Shown piece by piece: positions 24,020 through 34,905 of a stretch of DNA of 53,248 nucleotides. Every line of letters begins with the position of its first letter. Within the stretch, counting starts at the first letter, position 1. The notes under the pieces are model-generated. The model did no database searches, was not told the origin of the DNA, and saw only the letters and a list, made by a program, of their open reading frames with translations. The translations under genes were made by a program, and so were the position numbers. This DNA is from Gemmatimonadetes bacterium bin94 (GTDB taxonomy: Bacteria > Gemmatimonadota > Gemmatimonadetes > Longimicrobiales > Gaopeijiaceae): NCBI GenBank assembly GCA_002238865.1, contig MPNE01000004.1:147501-200748 (forward strand), given 5' to 3'.

Positions 24020-24835
24020 TCAGCAGACGATGGGGATCAGAGGCCGCGGCCGGGTTACGGTCCCCTCGACGTACGTGTTGGTGTAGATCCTGATCTGGCC
24101 GCACCCGCGGATCACTTCCACCCTGTAGACCGCGGTGGTGGGCAGGCTGGCAAGCTCCGGTACGCCGCCAAAGGCGGGAGCGTCGTCGATGAAGATCCTC
24201 GGACGTTGGGGCGTCGCTCCCCGGCCGCGCATGCAATCGCGTCGCTGGGCGAAGATTCCCGTCGCCGAATTGTCTTCGAAACAGGGAACGAATTCGAATC
24301 CCGGCTGGCTGTCCAGGTATTGGGCCACGCTCAGGTCGGGCGCGAACTTGAGCTCGACTTCGCTGTAGGTGTTGGTCAGGTACGGGAGTTCTCGGAGGCG
24401 TGTCACCAGGCGGTCCACGTACACTTCGATCCCCTCCAGCACCACCGGCTTCGGGATCACCGCCACCTCGACGAACTGACCTTCCCTGATGTCGAGCACC
24501 TGGATCAGGTCCGCGTATCCGATCCTCGACACCAAAACCTGGCTCGGCCCGGGCGGCACTTCCGCGATGCTGAAGCGCCCCGACTCGTCCGTTGCACCCT
24601 GGATCAGCGATCCGTCGGGGCGCCGCGTCCCTTCCAGACGTACGACGGCGCCCTCGACCGGCTCTCCCCAGTAGGTGTCGATGACCTGGCCCTGAAAGGT
24701 GACGGGCGCGAGCGACCCCTGCTGAGCGGCGGCTCCGGTTCCGGCGCCTCCGATCAGAAACGCCAGCGTCACCACCGAAAGCAGACGGCGGAGGAGCGAA
24801 TCGCCCGGAGCGAACGGAGGGTGCATGACGGCCAC
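24020..24835 (-). CDS. Secreted CarboxypepD-regulatory/plug-like protein without a beta barrel (A)
   Basis: 271 residues from GTG at 24835, 5 nt after the peroxiredoxin stop (ATG at 24826 is the alternative). The signal peptide is LLRRLLSVVTLAFLIGGAG, ending near AAA-QQ. Residues about 47-120 are a CarboxypepD regulatory-like domain (GQVIDTYWGEPVEGAVVRLEG, ATDESGRFSI). The remainder resembles a TonB-receptor plug (FIDDAPAFGG, YRVEVIRGCGQIRIYT) but ends where a barrel would begin. Cysteines at PCFED, RDCMR, RGCGQ and the final residue could form disulfides. No function established; similar short proteins seem common in Gemmatimonadota-like genomes. Confidence 0.75.
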   Translation of the reverse strand: MAVMHPPFAPGDSLLRRLLSVVTLAFLIGGAGTGAAAQQGSLAPVTFQGQVIDTYWGEPVEGAVVRLEGTRRPDGSLIQGATDESGRFSIAEVPPGPSQVLVSRIGYADLIQVLDIREGQFVEVAVIPKPVVLEGIEVYVDRLVTRLRELPYLTNTYSEVELKFAPDLSVAQYLDSQPGFEFVPCFEDNSATGIFAQRRDCMRGRGATPQRPRIFIDDAPAFGGVPELASLPTTAVYRVEVIRGCGQIRIYTNTYVEGTVTRPRPLIPIVC

Positions 24836-25373: not shown

Positions 25374-26417
25374 TCAACCGGCATCCGACGCCGATCCCGC
25401 CCGGCTCTTCTGTCTCGTCCAGATGAGCACTGCCCCGCAGCCATCCCGATGAATCCCCTGGTACTCCACCGGCGTTCGCGGGCCCCAGTACACTTCCGCC
25501 AACTCGACCCAGTCGGGCGGGATCTGATCGATGTCGACCGAGCCCTCGATGTCCACGCCCATCGGTATCCCGTCCACATACACGGCAAGCGCACAGTTCC
25601 GGGGCGCGACGAGCACGGATCGGGACGTCGACTCGCGAGAGATCCGGATTCCCGGGACGTGCGCGAAGGCGTCCGAAATCCGTATGGAGCCGCGTTCCTG
25701 GATCGTCTCGCGGGTCAGCAGGCGCATCACGACGCCCTGGTCCATCCGGCGGTACACCCCGTGACTCTCGAGGAACCGGGACCGGACTTCCACCTTGAGA
25801 GGGCGCAGCGGCACGGCTTCCACCGTCAACGCGACCTCGACGGCTGTCGTCCGGTCGGGGTGCAGCGAAACCGGCTCATTCCGGTCGGCATAACCGATCA
25901 TCTCCACGGCAACCTGGGTCAGCTGCAACCTGAGGTCGCGGAATTCGGCGCGTCCCTCGCTGTCGGTCACGCTCCTCCTGCCGTCGCGGAGCGACACGGT
26001 GGCCCCCTCGACCGGGATGCCACCCTGCGAATCCACGACCCGCACCAACAGGCGGGATGGAGCGGTCGGATCATCGATCTCCGCTCTGCTCATCTTCAAG
26101 GTGAAGTGACCCGGTCGAATGACGCTGAAGTCTCCGCGGATGGTGGAATAGCCACCTCTGCGCACGGTGAGCGTGTAGTCGCCGACGGCCGCGTCGAAGG
26201 TCACCCTTCCATCGACCCCCGTCACGTGGCGGCTGGGCACTCCCGACAGTTCGATGACCGCCCCCAGCAGGTTCGTGTTCGTGTCCAGGTCCTGTATTCG
26301 GGCGGTAATGCGGACGCGCCTGTCTTCCTGCCCCCCCACGGCTCCGTGGGCACCGAGAAACGGGCCGGCCAGCACGAGAAGAGCGGCGGCGCAGGGCATG
26401 CAGACCCTCCGTTTCAT
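25374..26417 (-). CDS. Secreted CarboxypepD-regulatory/plug-like protein without a beta barrel (B)
   Basis: 347 residues from the ATG at 26417, giving the signal peptide MKRRVCMPCAAALLVLAG. Other starts are 26444, and an ATG at 26399 with a better Shine-Dalgarno (CGGAGGG). Two CarboxypepD-like modules (about 35-110, TARIQDLDTNTNLLGAVIEL; and 115-205, LLVRVVDSQGGIPVEGATV) precede a plug-like domain. That domain has IRISDAFAHVPGIRI, the Cys-containing PRNCALAVYVDGIPM and HRDGCGAVLIWT. The paired Cys and the xDGxP / GCGxxxIxT pattern are shared with protein A. It stops without a receptor barrel. First gene of the three-gene minus-strand operon. Confidence 0.75.
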   Translation of the reverse strand: MKRRVCMPCAAALLVLAGPFLGAHGAVGGQEDRRVRITARIQDLDTNTNLLGAVIELSGVPSRHVTGVDGRVTFDAAVGDYTLTVRRGGYSTIRGDFSVIRPGHFTLKMSRAEIDDPTAPSRLLVRVVDSQGGIPVEGATVSLRDGRRSVTDSEGRAEFRDLRLQLTQVAVEMIGYADRNEPVSLHPDRTTAVEVALTVEAVPLRPLKVEVRSRFLESHGVYRRMDQGVVMRLLTRETIQERGSIRISDAFAHVPGIRISRESTSRSVLVAPRNCALAVYVDGIPMGVDIEGSVDIDQIPPDWVELAEVYWGPRTPVEYQGIHRDGCGAVLIWTRQKSRAGSASDAG

Positions 26418-26607
26418 CCCCGGGCGGACAATCACGATCCGCATCTCCCCAAAAGGGCGTCAGGCATCGGACTCACTCTCGATTGCGTACGACATTCCGT
26501 AGGAATATAGTGCCGCCACCCGGCTGAGCGCACAAGCAACGAGCGCCCCACGGCCTTCGACGGGCGACCACGGGCCGTCCCTGACTGGCGTAGACGGGCC
26601 ACTCCTC

Positions 26608-26613
26608 TATATT
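26608..26613 (+). promoter_or_regulatory. Candidate -10 element (TATATT) of the DUF1592 operon
   Basis: TATATT ends 8 nt before the ATG at 26622. There is no Shine-Dalgarno in the gap (TTGGATGC) and no clear -35. Transcription would start within a few nt of the ATG, so the operon's first gene may be translated from a leaderless mRNA. Confidence 0.4.
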
Positions 26614-26621
26614 TTGGATGC

Positions 26622-29081
26622 ATGACTAAATACACTGCCGTCCTGCTCACAGCGGGAGCGATCGGCCTTGGCCTGGCCGGCACTGCCGTTCAGTCCCCTC
26701 GCATCTCTTCCGGCGAGGCGGCGGACGGACCGCGTGATGCAGCGCCCGTTGTCTCGGGAGCCAACGAGGTCGTCGAGCAGTTTTGCACGCGATGTCACAA
26801 TGCGCGCTCGCGCCGCGGCGACCTGGTGCTCGAAGGCTTCGACATCGCCGACGCGATCAACCATCGTCCCACCATCGAGAAGATGATCCGCAAGTTGCGG
26901 GCCGGCATGATGCCGCCGATGGGCGCGCGCCGTCCCGATGCAGAGGTCCTCGGGTCGATGGCCACCGAACTTGAAACGGCCATGGACGGGATCGCGGCCA
27001 CAAGTCCGAACCCGGGCAAACGGACCTTCCAGCGCCTCAACCGGGCCGAATATTCACAGGCAGTCGAGGATCTCCTGGGACTCCAAATCGACGTGGGGAC
27101 GTTTCTCCCCCTTGACACCAAGAGCGCCAACTTCGACAACATCGCGGATGTGCAGATGCCGTCGGCAACCGTGATGGAAGGATATCTGCGTGCCGCCGGG
27201 CAGATCAGCAGGCTTGCCCTCGGCGACCCCGAGGCCGAGGTCTCGTCGACGATCTACCGGATCCCGAGGGTCGCTTCCCAGAAGGATCTGGTGGAAGGGG
27301 CACCGATCGGGACCCGGGGAGGGCTGTCGGTCGCCCATAACTTCCCCGCCGACGGCAAATACGTCTTCCACATCATGCCCTACGCCGCCGTCGAAGGAGA
27401 GGTCTTCGGCCGCACGTTCGGCACCGAGCAGATCGAGGTCTCGATCGACGGGGCACGTGTGGCGCTGCTGACCATCGATCGATGGATGTCGGAATCCGAG
27501 CCCACGGGACTCAACATCCGCACCGACTCCATCTACGTTACGGCCGGACAGAAGCGTGTTTCGGTCGCGTTCGTCCGCCAGTTCGAAGGCGTCGTGGACG
27601 ATCTCATTCGTCCCATCGACCACACTCTCGCAGACGGGCAGATCGGCATCGGCCTCGGTGTCACGACCCAGCAGCACCTTCAGCGGCTCACCGTCCTCGG
27701 CCCATTCGACGTCACCGGGGTCTCGGACACCCCGGCGCGGCGAACTGTCTTCACCTGCCGTCCCACCGTTCCCGAAGAGGCCCTGCCCTGCGCACGCCGG
27801 ATCATCGAGAGGTTGGCCACCAGGGCATACCGGCGACCCGCCCTCGACCGGGACATCGAGGGTCTCCTTCCCTTCTACGAGCAGGGCGCGGCGGACGGCG
27901 GCTTCGAGAAGGGCATCCGGACGGCCCTGCAGGCGATCCTTGCGAGCCCCCATTTCATTTTCCGGCTCGAGCGGCTGCCATCGGATCTCGAACCCGGCGG
28001 TGTCTACCGCATCGCCGACGTAGACCTCGCGTCCCGGTTGTCCTTCTTTCTCTGGGGGGCGCCGCCCGACGATGAACTGCTGGAGGTTGCGCGCTCGGGT
28101 TCCCTGTCCGCCCCGGACGAACTGGAGCGGCAGGCGCGCAGAATGCTGGCGGACCCGCGCGCGGAAGCGCTGGCGACACGGTTCGGGGCCCAGTGGCTTC
28201 GCCTTCAGGACCTCGAGAAGATCCACCCGGACGCGTTGACCTACCCCTACTTCGACCAGACCCTGGCCGACGCGATGCACCGGGAGACGGAGCTCTTCTT
28301 CACCAACCTGGTGCAGGAAGACCGCTCGGTCCTGGATCTGCTGACCGCCGACTACACCTTCGTCAACGAGCGCCTTGCACGACACTACGGAATCACGGGA
28401 GTCACGGGACCCGAGTTCAAAAGGGTCGACTATCCCACCGGCCATCGGCGCGGGCTGCTGGGGCACGGAAGCGTCCTCACGCTGACCTCCCACCCTGACC
28501 GCACCTCCCCGGTGCTGCGGGGCAAGTGGGTGCTCGAGGTGCTGCTCGGAGCGCCGCCACCCCCGCCTCCGCCTGACATTCCCGCCTTCGAGGAAACCGC
28601 CGCGGCCGAAGAGGGACGCTTCCTGACCGTCCGGGAACGGATGGAGGAACACCGGGCGAACCCGGCGTGCAGTTCCTGTCACAACGTGATCGACCCGCTG
28701 GGACTGGCACTGGAGAATTTCGACGTGACGGGGGCGTGGCGGATCCGCGACGGGGGCAACCCGGTCGACCCGGTCGGCGTCATGTACAACGGCCGGGAAC
28801 TCGCCAGCCCCGCCGATCTCAGGTCGGCGCTGCTCGATATGCCGGAGGTGGTTCTGCTCACCTTTGCGGAAAACCTGATGGCCTACGCGCTCGGCCGCAG
28901 GGTCGAATACTACGATATGCCAACGATCAGGGACATCACGCGCGGCGCGGCCGCAGACGACTACAGCATGTCCGCCTTCGTGCTCGGTGTCATCGGCAGC
29001 CCACCCTTCCGCACCGCCCTGGCGGGCGCCGTCGCCGACGACGATCCGGCCGCGGACCCACCACTACCGAAACGCGACTGA
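26622..29081 (+). CDS. Secreted DUF1587/1595/1592/1588/1585 protein with two CxxCH haem-binding motifs
   Basis: 819 residues; signal-like N-terminus (YTAVLLTAGAIGLGLAG). The first haem-c motif is CTRCH (C55, C58, H59), planctomycete cytochrome style. Then in order: DUF1587 (about 125-190, RTFQRLNRAEYSQAVEDLLGL), a beta-rich jelly-roll-like region (about 200-365), DUF1595 (about 390-430, ATRAYRRPALDRDIEGLLPF) and DUF1592 (ILASPHFIFRLE onward). DUF1588 follows (about 585-685, GHGSVLTLTSHPDRTSPVLRG), ending in the second motif CSSCH (C683, C686, H687), then DUF1585 (about 720-775). Families with this layout are periplasmic and functionally undescribed. It leads a four-gene operon. Confidence 0.92.
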   Translation: MTKYTAVLLTAGAIGLGLAGTAVQSPRISSGEAADGPRDAAPVVSGANEVVEQFCTRCHNARSRRGDLVLEGFDIADAINHRPTIEKMIRKLRAGMMPPMGARRPDAEVLGSMATELETAMDGIAATSPNPGKRTFQRLNRAEYSQAVEDLLGLQIDVGTFLPLDTKSANFDNIADVQMPSATVMEGYLRAAGQISRLALGDPEAEVSSTIYRIPRVASQKDLVEGAPIGTRGGLSVAHNFPADGKYVFHIMPYAAVEGEVFGRTFGTEQIEVSIDGARVALLTIDRWMSESEPTGLNIRTDSIYVTAGQKRVSVAFVRQFEGVVDDLIRPIDHTLADGQIGIGLGVTTQQHLQRLTVLGPFDVTGVSDTPARRTVFTCRPTVPEEALPCARRIIERLATRAYRRPALDRDIEGLLPFYEQGAADGGFEKGIRTALQAILASPHFIFRLERLPSDLEPGGVYRIADVDLASRLSFFLWGAPPDDELLEVARSGSLSAPDELERQARRMLADPRAEALATRFGAQWLRLQDLEKIHPDALTYPYFDQTLADAMHRETELFFTNLVQEDRSVLDLLTADYTFVNERLARHYGITGVTGPEFKRVDYPTGHRRGLLGHGSVLTLTSHPDRTSPVLRGKWVLEVLLGAPPPPPPPDIPAFEETAAAEEGRFLTVRERMEEHRANPACSSCHNVIDPLGLALENFDVTGAWRIRDGGNPVDPVGVMYNGRELASPADLRSALLDMPEVVLLTFAENLMAYALGRRVEYYDMPTIRDITRGAAADDYSMSAFVLGVIGSPPFRTALAGAVADDDPAADPPLPKRD

Positions 29082-29112
29082 AACCAAGCAACCAAAGAGC
29101 GAGGTCCGACCG

Positions 29113-30501
29113 ATGCAATACCTCAGCGGCAAACACATTTCGCGGCGCACGATGCTCAAGGGAGCCGGCGCGGCGATCGGCCTGCCCCTTCTGGACGCGA
29201 TGATCCCCGCCGGCCGTTTGTGGGCGTCGACAGAAGCCGGGAAAGCCGCCGACCGCACCCGCCTCGTCTGTATCGAGCAGGTGCATGGTGCCGCGGGATG
29301 CAACGACTGGGGTGCCAGCCAGAACCTCTGGTCCCCGGCCGAGACCGGCCGCGACTTCGACTTGTCGCCCAGCAGTCTCAAGCCGCTCGAACCCTTCCGG
29401 AAGTACCTGACCATCGTCAGCGACACCGACGCCCGGATGGCCGACGCCTATGCTCCCAGCGAGATCGGCGGCGACCACTTCCGTACCAGCGCGGTGTTCC
29501 TCACCCAGGCCCACCCGAAGCAGACCGAGGGCTCGGATGTTCAGGTCGGAACCTCCTTCGACCAGCTTTACGTGCAGCGCTTCGGCCAGGACACGCCGAT
29601 CCCCTCGCTGCAGCTGTCGATCGAAAATGTCGACCAGGCCGGGGGCTGCGCTTACGGGTACGCCTGTGTCTACACCGACACGATCAGTTGGTCATCGCCC
29701 AGTCAGCCACTTCCCATGATCCGCGATCCGAGAGCCGTCTTCGAGCAGCTCTTCGGCGCCGGGGGCACGCCCGAACAGCGTGCCGAGCGGCTGACCACCG
29801 ACCGGAGCATTCTGGACTGGGTCATGGGCGAGATGTCGGCCGTCCGGCGCCAGCTTGATCCGGTGGACGTTCACCGGCTCGACCAGTACGCCCACAATAT
29901 CCGCGAACTCGAGCAGCGCATTCAGAGGATCGAGGCCCAGAACACGAGCGGCGAAGAGCGCCAGATTCCGGAAGCGCCCATCGGCGTCCCCGACTCGTTC
30001 GAGGAGCACGTCAAGCTGATGTTCGACCTGCAGGTGCTCGCGTTCCGCTCGGACACCACCCGCGTGTTCTCGCTGAAGCTGGGACGCGACGCGTCGCCGC
30101 GGGTCTACCCGGAGTCGGGTGTGGACACGCCTTTCCACGCCTCCTCTCACCACGGAGGCCGGGAGGACAGAGTCAAGCAGTTCGCCAGGATCAACGAGTA
30201 CCACGTGTCGATGGTTCCCTACTTCCTCGAGCAGCTGCAGCAGGTGAACGAGGGCGATGGCACCCTTCTCGACAAGACGATGCTCATGTACGGCTCGGCG
30301 ATGGCGGACAGCAACCTGCACAACCACGCGCGCTGTCCGCTGTTCCTTGCGGGAGGCGCTGGCGGAATCCTGGAGGGGGAGCAGCACATCCGCGCGCGCC
30401 CCGGCACACCCATGGCGAACGTCATGCTGAGCCTGCTCCACAAGCTGGGCGCGGACGACATCGAGGCGTTCGGAAACAGCACGGGCCACTTCGCGATCTA
30501 G
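29113..30501 (+). CDS. Tat-exported DUF1552 protein
   Basis: 462 residues from the ATG at 29113 (GAGG 8 nt upstream); the frame is open further upstream but lacks signals. The N-terminus has a twin-arginine motif (SRRTMLK, R11-R12) followed by a hydrophobic segment, so the protein is probably exported folded and may carry a cofactor or metals. The DUF1552 body includes VCIEQVHGAAGC, the FRTSAVFLTQAHP segment, TTRVFSLKLGRD, ASSHHGG and MYGSAMADSNLHNH. Several conserved His/Asp resemble a metal-binding alkaline-phosphatase/sulfatase-like fold such as DUF1501 proteins (inference). It follows the DUF1592 gene by 31 nt, the typical pairing. Confidence 0.92.
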   Translation: MQYLSGKHISRRTMLKGAGAAIGLPLLDAMIPAGRLWASTEAGKAADRTRLVCIEQVHGAAGCNDWGASQNLWSPAETGRDFDLSPSSLKPLEPFRKYLTIVSDTDARMADAYAPSEIGGDHFRTSAVFLTQAHPKQTEGSDVQVGTSFDQLYVQRFGQDTPIPSLQLSIENVDQAGGCAYGYACVYTDTISWSSPSQPLPMIRDPRAVFEQLFGAGGTPEQRAERLTTDRSILDWVMGEMSAVRRQLDPVDVHRLDQYAHNIRELEQRIQRIEAQNTSGEERQIPEAPIGVPDSFEEHVKLMFDLQVLAFRSDTTRVFSLKLGRDASPRVYPESGVDTPFHASSHHGGREDRVKQFARINEYHVSMVPYFLEQLQQVNEGDGTLLDKTMLMYGSAMADSNLHNHARCPLFLAGGAGGILEGEQHIRARPGTPMANVMLSLLHKLGADDIEAFGNSTGHFAI

Positions 30502-30513
30502 TACGGGGGCGAC

Positions 30514-32376
30514 ATGAAAGCAGGCCGAAGGCTGGACAGATCATCCGCGGCGTTCGCGATCGCGCTGGTGTTGGCGGGCGCCTCGCTCGGGGCGGCCCGC
30601 GCCGACCTGGCCGTTGCCAATGCCGATGCTCCCGTGGCCGATGCCGCCGAGCGCAGCGACCTCGAGGCGGTACGGACGCTGCTTCGCCAGGGCGAGGACG
30701 CGAACACTGCGCAGAGCGACGGCATGACGGCGCTTCACTGGGCCGCCAGCAACAACGACATCGAGATCGCCCGCACCCTGCTCTATGCGGGCGCGACCGT
30801 CCGGGCCACCACCCGGCTTGGCGGGTACACGCCTCTGCACCTGGCAAGCCGCGCGGGCCACCCCGAGGTTGCGGGCGCGCTGCTGGAGGCGGGAGCCGAT
30901 CCCGACGTGTTCACGACGACCGGAGTCACGGCCATGCACTTCGCAGCGGACGCCGACGCGCCCGGGGTCGTGACGACGCTCGTCAAGCACGATGCCGACG
31001 TCAACGCGCGGGACGGCTTCTCCCGCCGCACTCCCCTGATGTTCGCTGCGGTGCGTGGTGCCGACGCGGCCCTCCAGGCCCTGTTGGACGCCGGCGCCGA
31101 GCCGGGTCTGGTTACGGACACAAAGGACTACGAGGCGCTGGACCAGAGCCTCCGGGCCGAACAGCGGCAGCGTGCGCGAGTCCGTGCCGCCGCAGAGGAG
31201 CCCGAGGAGGAGGAGGAAGAGCCCGAAGCGCCTACCCAGGGAAGCCAACCTGCTCCCGGACAGCCCCGCACCCCGGCCCAACCGGCCCCCGCGGGCGCGA
31301 CGCCGGCCGATCCGGCAGCCAAGCCCGACCCGGAGCCTCCGGTCAGGGCGCTCAGTTCGGCCCAGCAGATCGGGAAGCAGGGAGGCTTTTCGGCGCTCCA
31401 CTACGCCGTTCGCGAGGGGCACCGGTCCACGGCCTCACTGCTGCTTGACGGCGGCGCGGACATCAACCAGCCGACGGCCGGGGACGAAACCTCGCCGATG
31501 CTCGTTGCGATCATCAACGGCAACTACGACCTGGCCCGGGACCTTCTGGAGCGCGGCGCCGACCCGAATCAGCTCAGCGACGACGGAGCAGGTCCGCTTT
31601 TCGCGACGCTGAACATCGAGTGGTCGCTCCGCACCTGGTATCCGCAACCGCAGGCATTTCGCCAGCAGGAGACGAGCTACCTGGAGTTGATGCGCCTACT
31701 GCTCGACGCAGGTGCCGATCCGAACCAGCAGACCACCACGCACATCTGGTACGCGGCGTACAACGCGGGCCGCATGGGTGTTGATTTCACCGGCGCCACC
31801 CCCTTCTGGCGGGCGGCCTACGCCGTCGACGTGACCGCGATGCGCCTGCTGGTCGAGTACGGGGCCGATCCGAACATCTGGACGACAAAGCTGCCGGACC
31901 GGCGGCGCTTCTTCGACCCCAACTTCCCGGACACGCAGCCGGATGAGGAACCTGCCGATCCTTCCGGCCTGCCTCCCGTTCCCGTTGGAGGCCCGGCGAT
32001 TCACGCCCTGCACGCGGCGGCGGGCGTCGGCTTCGGCACGTCGCGGGTCGCCCAGCAGCACCGGAGCGTCCCGGACGGATGGCTGCCCGCGATCCGCTAT
32101 CTGGTGGACGAACTCGGGGTCGACCCCAACCTCCGCGACAAGGACGGATTCAACGCGATCCACCACGCCGCGGCCCGGGGCGACAACGAGACGATTCTTT
32201 TCCTGATCAACCGGGGTGCCGAGATCGGGGCGATCAGCCGACGAGGCCAGACTACCGCGGACCTGGCAAACAGCCCAGAACAGCGGGCCCAGCCACACCC
32301 GGCCACGGTAGCCTTGCTGGAGAAGCTCGGATCGCACAACAGCCACCAGTGCCGGTCCTGTGGGGGCAGCCGTTGA
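30514..32376 (+). CDS. Secreted ankyrin-repeat protein with C-terminal CxxC
   Basis: 620 residues. The signal peptide (about 1-31) ends near ARA-DL. A first ankyrin block (about 45-220) has repeats such as GMTALHWAASNNDIEIARTL and GYTPLHLASRAGHPEVAGAL. An acidic, Pro/Ala-rich linker (about 228-275) follows. A second block (about 288-600) includes GFSALHYAVREGHRSTASLL. The last residues are QCRSCGGSR, with C613 and C616. Ankyrins are protein-binding scaffolds; a periplasmic one beside DUF1592/DUF1552 proteins probably organises that complex (inference). GGGGG lies 4 nt before the ATG; the gene starts 12 nt after the DUF1552 stop. Confidence 0.9.
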   Translation: MKAGRRLDRSSAAFAIALVLAGASLGAARADLAVANADAPVADAAERSDLEAVRTLLRQGEDANTAQSDGMTALHWAASNNDIEIARTLLYAGATVRATTRLGGYTPLHLASRAGHPEVAGALLEAGADPDVFTTTGVTAMHFAADADAPGVVTTLVKHDADVNARDGFSRRTPLMFAAVRGADAALQALLDAGAEPGLVTDTKDYEALDQSLRAEQRQRARVRAAAEEPEEEEEEPEAPTQGSQPAPGQPRTPAQPAPAGATPADPAAKPDPEPPVRALSSAQQIGKQGGFSALHYAVREGHRSTASLLLDGGADINQPTAGDETSPMLVAIINGNYDLARDLLERGADPNQLSDDGAGPLFATLNIEWSLRTWYPQPQAFRQQETSYLELMRLLLDAGADPNQQTTTHIWYAAYNAGRMGVDFTGATPFWRAAYAVDVTAMRLLVEYGADPNIWTTKLPDRRRFFDPNFPDTQPDEEPADPSGLPPVPVGGPAIHALHAAAGVGFGTSRVAQQHRSVPDGWLPAIRYLVDELGVDPNLRDKDGFNAIHHAAARGDNETILFLINRGAEIGAISRRGQTTADLANSPEQRAQPHPATVALLEKLGSHNSHQCRSCGGSR

Positions 32377-32939
32377 TGGCACGCCGCACATCGATGGAAC
32401 AGCATGGGGCACGCCGCTCGATGGCAGCTCTGGGGGCGTCGGTCACAGCCGCGGCGCTGCTGGTCGCGTTGCCCGCTTCCGCCCAGGACACGGAGTGGAA
32501 CCGTTACACCCTGGAGGGCCTCGCCGGGGTGTACGTTCGTGCGGAAGCCAACCTGGGGTGCGAGGGCGCCGGAGTCTCGGCGGAAGCGGTCCGCATGGAC
32601 GCCGCGGCCGTGCTCGAGGCGGCGGAGGTTCCCCTTCTCACCGAACGCGAAATGCTTGCGAGCCCGGGGCTCCCCGAGCTCAGGGTCTCGCTCGAATGCG
32701 GCGGGGGGGTCGCGGGGGTGGTGGCGTACTCGGTGTCTGTCCGTGTACAGCAGGCCACGCAGATGATCCGCGACACCCAGATTACGTTGTCGGAGGCGGT
32801 GACCTGGTGGACGAGCATGGTGGGCGTGGCCGAGGCGGCTTCGACGGGGGATGCCCTGGGAGCGGCTCTGGAGGCCGGGCTGGCCGAGTTCACCGAAGCA
32901 TTCGCCGCTGCGAACGCGGAGGAGGAGGGATCGGGGTAG
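32376..32939 (+). CDS. Small secreted protein of unknown function
   Basis: 187 residues. The ATG shares one base with the ankyrin stop (TGATG), with GGGGG upstream, so translation is coupled. The signal peptide covers about residues 14-38, ending ASA-QD. The mature part has two Cys (NLGCEGAG and SLECGGGV), a beta-like YSVSVRVQQATQMIRDTQ segment and an acidic/Ala-rich C-terminal helix. No named family recognised. Position suggests a fourth component of the DUF1592/DUF1552 export operon. Confidence 0.75.
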   Translation: MARRTSMEQHGARRSMAALGASVTAAALLVALPASAQDTEWNRYTLEGLAGVYVRAEANLGCEGAGVSAEAVRMDAAAVLEAAEVPLLTEREMLASPGLPELRVSLECGGGVAGVVAYSVSVRVQQATQMIRDTQITLSEAVTWWTSMVGVAEAASTGDALGAALEAGLAEFTEAFAAANAEEEGSG

Positions 32940-33070: not shown

Positions 33071-34882
33071 TCACTCCTCTTTTGCCGTGATGACCGCCAG
33101 GAAGTGCTCGCCGTAGCGGCGGAGCTTCGTCTCCCCCACCCCGCCGAGGCGGGAGAATTCGTCGAGGGTGCGCGGGCGCAGCTCCACCATGGCGCGCAGC
33201 GTCGAATCGTGGAAGATCACGTAGGGCGGCACCTTCTGGGCCTTGGCCAACTCGGTGCGGCAAGTACGCAGATCTTCCCATAGGGCCTCGTCCCAGGTGG
33301 CGGGATCGGGAGGTGGCACCGCTTCCTTCGGCTTTCTCTTCGCCCCGGTACGCCCGGGCCGCAGGTCTCGCCGCATGCGCACCTCGGTTTCGCCGCGCAG
33401 CACGGGCCAGCTGCCTTCGGTGAGCCGCAGCGATCCATATCCATCCAGGTCGACGCTGAGCAGGCCGCGGGCCACCAGTTGCCGAAAGACCGAGCGCCAG
33501 CTGTACGGATCCAGATCGGCGCCGACGCCGTGGGTCGGAAGCCGCTCGTGGCCGAAACGCTGGATGCGCTCGTTCTCCAGGCCCCGGAGCACGTCGATCA
33601 GGTACCCTGCCCCGAACATCTGGCCCGTGCGGTAGACGCACGAGAGAGCCTTCTGTGACGCCTCCGTCGCGTTCCACTCCGCCACCGGGGCCAGGCAGTT
33701 GTCGCAGTTGCCGCACGGCTCGGGCAGGCTCTCGCCGAAATAGTTCAGCAGCGTCTGCCGCCGGCACGCGGTCAGCTCGCAGTAGCCGAGCATGGCGTCG
33801 AGCTTGCGGATTTCCAGCCGCTTGCGCATCTCGCCCGCGTCCGAGCCCTCCACCATCTGGCGCAGCGCGACCACCTCCTGCAGTCCGTAGACCATCCAGG
33901 CGTCGGCCGGCAACCCGTCGCGCCCCGCCCGTCCCGTCTCCTGGTAGTAGGCTTCGATGCTCTTGGGCAGATCGAGGTGGGCGACGAAGCGCACGTCGGG
34001 TTTGTCGATCCCCATGCCGAATGCAATGGTGGCCACGATCACGACGCCCTCTTCGCGCTGAAACCGGTCCTGATTGCGGCGCCTGGTGAACGCATCGAGG
34101 CCCGCGTGGTACGGCAGCGCGTCCACCCCGATGCCCCGCAGCCACTCCGCAGTGTCGTCGACCCTGCGCCGCGACAGGCAGTATACGATTCCCGCGTCGC
34201 CCTGATGGTGCTCATCGAGAAAGCGGCGAAGCTGTTGCCTGGCTCGGTTCTTGGGCACCACCGCGTACCGGATGTTGGGCCGATCGAAGCCGCTGACGAA
34301 CATCGGCGCGTCCGCCAACCCAAGCCGCTGCACGATCTCGCGGCGTGTCGGCTTGTCGGCAGTTGCGGTAAGCGCGATCCGGGGAACCTCGGGGAAGCGC
34401 TCGCGCAGGATGGAAAGCTGCAGGTACTCGGGGCGGAAGTCGTGCCCCCACTGGGACACGCAGTGCGCTTCGTCGATGGCGAAGAGGGCCAGCTCGGTAC
34501 GGGAGAGCAGCTCCTGGGTGCGATCACCCATGAGGCGCTCGGGAGCGACGTAGAGCAGATCGATCAGCCCGTTCTCCACCGCGGCCTCGACCTCGGACAC
34601 CTCACGGTAGGACAGGGTCGAATTGAGGGATGCCGCCCGCACCCCCGTCTGGCGAAGCGCCTCCACCTGATCCCTCATGAGTGCGATGAGGGGCGAGACG
34701 ACCACGCCGACACCACTGCGCACGATGGCGGGAATCTGGTAGCAGAGCGACTTGCCCCCGCCGGTCGGCATGAGCACCAGGCTGTCGCCCCCGGCCACGG
34801 TGTGCTCGATGATGGCTTCCTGCTGGCCCAGAAACTCCCCGAATCCGAAGACGCGGTGGAGGATCTCGTGGACGCCGGTCAT
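33071..34882 (-). CDS. recQ: ATP-dependent DNA helicase RecQ
   Basis: 603-residue 3'-5' superfamily 2 helicase. Walker A is [12 protein letters not shown], the DEAH box is [19 protein letters not shown], and motif VI is [10 protein letters not shown]. The RecQ zinc-binding cysteines lie in [20 protein letters not shown], followed by DNC, with winged helix after. An HRDC domain occupies the last 80 residues ([19 protein letters not shown]). The ATG at 34882 matches the usual RecQ N-terminus ([14 protein letters not shown]); the frame runs on upstream only as shadow. It starts 23 nt after the DUF5916 gene on the same strand and has no clear Shine-Dalgarno. Confidence 0.96.
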
Positions 34883-34905
34883 GTGCGGGGAGGGGCTACG
34901 GACCA

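Follow-up and report, generated by a model that had tools for sequence, protein, structure and literature searches.

An exported gene unit of Gemmatimonadota that joins a predicted di-haem cytochrome to a DUF1552 protein of predicted alkaline phosphatase-superfamily fold and an ankyrin protein

Described systems related to the locus

The closest described relative of the locus analyzed here is the PSCyt3 (DUF1588/DUF1592) system of Verrucomicrobia. According to the main text of its published account, verrucomicrobial PSCyt3 genes usually adjoin one unknown gene family, PSCyt proteins can carry CBMs, and PSCyt genes are found near sulfatases (PMC5615132). The two systems have in common the multi-domain cytochrome architecture, a constant neighbour, which in Verrucomicrobia is probably DUF1552, and a link with CBMs and sulfatases; the verrucomicrobial one belongs to another phylum, and the main text of that account gives no ankyrin gene, no fourth gene and no fold for the partner (PMC5615132). 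The earlier note on this DNA presented the locus as the best candidate for an undescribed system in the window. Part of this is already known, the DUF1592–DUF1552 pair having in all probability been noted in Verrucomicrobia (PMC5615132). The ankyrin third gene and the alkaline phosphatase-superfamily fold of DUF1552 were found nowhere in the literature searched. In 5.39 million open-access papers, neither an ankyrin partner, nor the small fourth gene, nor a function of DUF1552 was found.

A parallel arrangement is the pairing of PSCyt2 (DUF1549/DUF1553) with DUF1501, in which a cytochrome-domain protein likewise accompanies a Tat-exported protein. Comparison of the DUF1552 and DUF1501 profiles gives a weak match over the C-terminal motif (probability 50), while the two pairs otherwise consist of different protein families; a single weak DUF1501 fragment match was the only one in the sample of the window's genus. 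DUF1592 and DUF1552 genes also occur in Acidobacteria and Myxococcota. Some genomes contain a dozen copies of PSCyt/PSD and DUF1552 genes, yet no function is assigned to these families.

The gene unit and its setting

The window, that is, the whole stretch of 53,248 nucleotides analyzed, belongs to a Gemmatimonadota assembly of 4.42 Mb. The closest relatives of this genome are MAGs that carry the label Gemmatimonadetes or Longimicrobiales, several of them probably sponge-associated to judge from the names of their MAG series. Four genes with ATG starts follow one another on the plus strand: g1 (26622..29081, 819 aa) encodes an exported PSCyt3/DUF1592-family protein predicted to be a di-haem c-type cytochrome, g2 (29113..30501, 462 aa) a Tat-exported DUF1552/HXXSHH protein with a predicted alkaline phosphatase-superfamily fold, g3 (30514..32376, 620 aa) an exported ankyrin-repeat protein, and g4 (32376..32939, 187 aa) a small exported protein that matches no Pfam or NCBIfam family. 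Re-reading of the open reading frames returned exactly the strand and the gaps first reported, namely 31 nt between g1 and g2, 12 nt between g2 and g3, and -1 nt between g3 and g4, g4 starting on the last base of the g3 stop codon. The first gene is also present as described, with its start shifted from 26608 to the ATG located 14 bases downstream. Each of the four products has an export signal, as had been claimed, that of g2 being a twin-arginine signal and those of g1, g3 and g4 Sec-like leader peptides judged by eye. Cytochrome c assembly (Cytochrom_C_asm) genes and a TatC gene are present in the same genome.

The unit stands apart from its neighbours: the minus-strand gene upstream (25374-26444) is divergent, and recQ, downstream (33071-34891), is convergent. 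The same succession of four genes is found in loci that lack recQ and the upstream gene as immediate neighbours, and the operon is more than a chance arrangement, because gene order is kept across genomes while flanking genes change. Promoter and terminator scans gave nothing above chance. Two short genes on the minus strand (24020-24835 and 25374-26444) encode CarboxypepD_reg and TonB plug domains without a beta-barrel, and such plug-only exported proteins are unusual.

Recurrence and joint divergence of the first three genes

The neighbourhood survey comprised 139 distinct DUF1552 genes, with surroundings taken from relatives and from three plasmid records, and its denominators count the DUF1552 genes with enough flanking sequence to look. 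A DUF1592 gene lies upstream of DUF1552 in 125/128 cases, and in 123/130 the gene downstream encodes a related exported ankyrin protein. This survey had been set in the earlier note as the test on which the linkage would fall; it left the ankyrin gene recurrently tied to DUF1552 and bore out a recurrent exported unit. Two of the seven ankyrin misses are the Planctomyces SH-PL62 and Sphingobium records, in which no ankyrin gene stands beside DUF1552, so the ankyrin gene is not essential everywhere.

The ankyrin protein accompanies DUF1552 in 67 of 96 genomes of the window's family, and neither occurs in another 27; in one of the two discordant genomes, a shorter ankyrin type occupies the expected place (L130). 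Positive genomes have from 1 to 13 DUF1552 copies, and triads are sometimes in tandem. The triad is also found in other families and in one other family of the same order (L215-L234), and on a plasmid of Novosphingobium sp. KACC 22771 (L235), where gene order and domain set are the same but the ankyrin protein is of the shorter type, without C-terminal CxxC, and g4 is missing. The Novosphingobium record, which comes from a soil alphaproteobacterium, is the one case of the triad met outside the phylum and offers a possible experimental host.

Pairwise distances among 57 complete triads are strongly correlated (0.93 for g1-g2, 0.94 for g2-g3 and 0.95 for g1-g3; 0 of 999 permutations as high), a correlation to which whole-genome shared ancestry adds, though many of the triads are paralogues from the same genome. 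Given this parallel divergence, the three genes duplicate and diverge as one unit.

Variants of the arrangement are also encountered. A DUF1592–DUF1552 pair without its own ankyrin gene directly precedes a complete triad in one locus (L123:613-8504), and in another (L131:1922-7283) a short-type ankyrin gene is divergent and placed upstream of the DUF1592–DUF1552 pair instead of downstream. On one contig (L119 and L120, G045 contig 38), SusC/SusD-like genes and a gene for an S9 peptidase lie among a cluster of triads, which hints at the uptake of large substrates.

The predicted cytochrome and its beta-sandwich

Protein g1 comprises PSD3/DUF1587, PSD5/DUF1595, PSD4/DUF1592, PSCyt3/DUF1588 and PSD2/DUF1585, in that order and all over the Pfam cut-off. 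Its AF2 model (pLDDT 75, pTM 0.78) shows an N-terminal helical domain, a beta-sandwich (residues 206-366) and a helical remainder. There are exactly two CxxCH motifs, both kept in 70/70 relatives, which together with the equally conserved M97-P98 confirms the c-type cytochrome motifs announced for the first protein. The first motif, CTRCH (26784..26798, plus strand; residues 55-59), is located in the N-terminal helical domain, which is putatively cytochrome c-like and whose matches to Cytochrome_CBB3 (E 1.8e-4) and to PSCyt1 (E 0.0018) stay below the cut-off; C55, C58, H59, M97 and P98 are invariant in these relatives, and M97-P98 is a candidate for the distal haem ligand. The second motif, CSSCH (28668..28682, plus strand; residues 683-687), is located in PSCyt3, where C683, C686, H687 and H677 are found in 70/70 relatives and M766 in 62/70, either M766 or H677 being the candidate distal ligand.

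The beta-sandwich (27237..27719, plus strand) reaches no Pfam family cut-off and has a CBM6/CBM35/CBM36-like fold in the model. A fold search with residues 203-365 aligned it to CBM36 and CBM6 chains with Z up to 10.2 over 103-106 residues and rmsd 2.6-2.8 (VIA-align). Since some unrelated non-glycan beta-sandwich chains also score about Z 8 against this domain, glycan binding by g1 is proposed as a hypothesis only. Searches of PDB sequences with g1, g2 and g4 produced nothing credible.

A variant in Sphingobium herbicidovorans bears on the role of g1. There, the genes that come after the one for the DUF1592 protein encode DUF1552, cytochrome c' and a b561-type cytochrome b (cytochrome b561), and the DUF1592 homologue has neither the N-terminal cytochrome domain nor room for the beta-sandwich. 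This operon is the best evidence, at the level of a hint, that electrons matter to the system, and with the haem motifs it makes electron transfer by g1 likely.

The DUF1552 protein and its predicted fold

Protein g2 is a member of PF07586 (DUF1552, now named HXXSHH; E 3e-86, 290 bits against a cut-off of 30). It starts with the Tat signal SRRTMLKGAGAAIGLPLLDAM, the twin arginine of which (R11-R12; 29143..29148, plus strand) is invariant in 84/84 relatives and kept in virus-borne ones. The AF2 model (pLDDT 75, pTM 0.83) has active-site loops with pLDDT < 50. All 50 VIA-align rows are alkaline phosphatase-superfamily chains (Z 14.0-15.6 over 237-281 residues), and Foldseek finds the same superfamily with an E of 2.8e-5; the matches include choline sulfatase, ENPPs, YejM, LtaS-type and EptC enzymes. 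The modelled g2 therefore has the alkaline phosphatase-superfamily fold, an assignment of fold and not of function. Known members of this superfamily are hydrolases and transferases. With the sulfatases, the ENPPs, YejM/PbgA, LtaS and EptC, g2 shares this predicted fold, but sequence identity to the fold matches is about 10%, the CxPSR formylglycine motif, which true sulfatases from the window's genus do have, is absent, and g2 has an HxxSHH motif of its own and is exported alongside a cytochrome.

The HxxSHH motif (H342, S345, H346, H347; 30136..30153, plus strand) is conserved in at least 162 of 164 DUF1552 sequences, in which H122, H299, H403, H425, C179 and C185 are almost invariant as well. 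From this conservation, HxxSHH together with H122, H299, H403 and H425 is a probable metal site. Assignment of g2 to sulfatase family S1 was rejected, as the CxPSR motif is missing and the profile match to sulfatases is insignificant. Because this motif is absent and no nucleophile is identified, g2 could also be a non-catalytic relative of the alkaline phosphatase-superfamily fold.

The fold has consequences for the mechanism put forward in the earlier note, in which g2 would itself be a redox metalloenzyme and g1 would pass electrons directly to or from it. Its constant pairing with the di-haem-motif protein, the cytochromes b561 and c' of the Sphingobium operon and the many invariant histidines of g2 agree with such a role. 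However, the fold matches are confined to a superfamily of hydrolases and transferases, g2 contains no redox cofactor motif, and DUF1552 is carried by viruses in the absence of g1; this explanation is accordingly judged unlikely. What was said of a periplasmic redox complex stands as regards the recurrent unit, the haem motifs of g1 and the ankyrin linkage, and loses ground on g2 as the electron partner, for which there is no direct support.

DUF1552 genes on virus contigs

Stand-alone DUF1552 genes are found on eleven uncultivated IMG/VR virus contigs (L292-L301 and L312). No DUF1592 or ankyrin relative lies near DUF1552 in the ten virus loci examined, and neither g1 nor g3 retrieved a relative from the virus-contig collection. 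Nearly all virus copies retain the Tat arginines and the histidines of HxxSHH, that of L298 having T in place of S. Clear phage genes lie near DUF1552 on at least two contigs, one of which (L297) encodes a T4-type major head protein and a head maturation protease. The virus-type DUF1552 is absent from INPHARED phage records and from PHROGs, and it is a candidate auxiliary gene. Loci L190 and L208 of the neighbourhood survey likewise have DUF1552 without g1 and g3 partners, and from all these solitary copies it follows that DUF1552 does not need g1 or g3 and can be useful alone.

In another virus locus (L299:2340-13056), DUF1552 is flanked by tail-fibre genes on one side and by minor tail protein genes on the other, a placement that suggests a target on the host surface. 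Two further contigs have particular neighbours: a DUF1501 gene (PF07394, E 4e-104) directly precedes DUF1552 in L301:5501-8284, where a DNA ligase is encoded on the same contig, and in L292:5188-8431, on a low-GC virus contig, an IscA-like Fe-S biosynthesis gene separates two DUF1552 genes.

The stand-alone virus genes, including the one among tail genes, and the presence of the envelope-modifying YejM, LtaS-type and EptC enzymes among the fold relatives would fit a g2 acting autonomously as an exported hydrolase or transferase on envelope polymers, with g1 and g3 co-inherited for a parallel or structural task and little electron transfer. Such autonomy is difficult to reconcile with three bacterial genes that are almost always linked and diverge in parallel, and is regarded as rather doubtful.

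Proposed mechanism

The preferred reading, to which a probability of about 40% is given, is a haem-linked, glycan-directed and metal-dependent hydrolase or transferase complex assisted by an ankyrin helper, rather than a simple electron chain, a scheme weakened by the g2 fold and the stand-alone virus copies. The operon would give rise to a physical complex in the periplasm or envelope, with haem bound in g1 and metal in g2. Protein g1 would dock on a glycan or glycoconjugate through its inserted CBM-like beta-sandwich and exchange electrons with the respiratory chain. Protein g2 would fold in the cytoplasm, be exported by Tat and, as a metal-dependent enzyme, act on an ester of that substrate (sulfate, phosphate or similar), either by hydrolysis or by transfer, a reaction that may be coupled to the electron flow. 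Protein g3 would hold or assemble the g1-g2 pair and perhaps aid cofactor loading through its conserved C-terminal CxxC.

A bolder version, offered with considerable reserve, is that of a widespread and hitherto undescribed exported machine. Its enzyme, of alkaline phosphatase fold, would act in concert with a di-haem cytochrome that docks on sugars and with an ankyrin helper, and would couple glycan-ester cleavage to oxidation by the respiratory chain; viruses would carry relatives of this catalytic subunit as well. The fold class of g2 and the possible glycan-binding domain of g1 lend themselves to concrete tests, namely of metal, ester substrates, haem and glycan binding.

The ankyrin protein

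In g3, Pfam Ank families score over the cut-off (191 bits against 21). In the long ankyrin type, the relatives conserve a C-terminal CxxC (C613 and C616 in 75/75; 32350..32361, plus strand), preceded by H611 in 70/75; the motif does not have the histidine of a haem motif, and it is absent from the short ankyrin type. Protein g3 may be a scaffold, an assembly factor or a cofactor helper.

A precedent for the last of these roles is Cj1386, an ankyrin protein that delivers haem to catalase in Campylobacter (PMC11442138). The likeness is one of role, and Cj1386 is cytoplasmic with catalase as its partner (PMC11442138), whereas g3 is exported. That g3 would be chiefly a haem or cofactor handling helper of this kind is consistent with this precedent (PMC11442138), with the position of the ankyrin gene next to that of a predicted haem protein, and with the invariant CxxC of the long type and H611 beside it. 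But Cj1386 loads non-covalent haem, while the loading of covalent c-type haem falls to a cytochrome c assembly system, for which this genome has the genes, and the shorter ankyrin type dispenses with the CxxC; this role is improbable.

A further proposal makes of g3 a symbiont effector aimed at a sponge host. The group of the window genome includes many host-associated MAGs, and these MAG series have a probable link with sponges. The triad is nevertheless shared by non-host genomes, namely a groundwater MAG (L188), bacterium HR33 (L180) and a soil Novosphingobium, and the ankyrin protein diverges in step with g1 and g2. An effector function is rejected as a general role on account of these non-host genomes, and is very improbable for g3 itself. 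Matches of g3 to Dot/Icm effectors in NCBIfam score well under the cut-off and stem from ankyrin repeats as such, so this assignment was also discarded.

A lineage-specific fourth gene

The linkage of extra genes seen in the window differs between the two concerned: that of the ankyrin gene is widespread, whereas g4 is confined to a single orthologous group of a single family. Relatives of g4 are found in 41/96 genomes of the family (in two of them only weakly), as a single copy save for one fragmented case, and g4 is found in 31/200 genomes across the phylum, all belonging to the window's family. In 42/43 fetched cases it follows g3. In the g2 tree, the loci that carry g4 group together in a single, well supported set. 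It comprises 37 rows, of which 32 have g4, four are unknown in this respect and one has a broken g4. Comparison of g4 and its 37 relatives with Pfam and NCBIfam gave only chance-level matches. The protein has two invariant cysteines, C62 and C108, and would represent a lineage-specific extra subunit of the proposed complex. In a close relative (L173:10189-10810), g4 is split into two reading frames by a frameshift located either in the gene or in the assembly.
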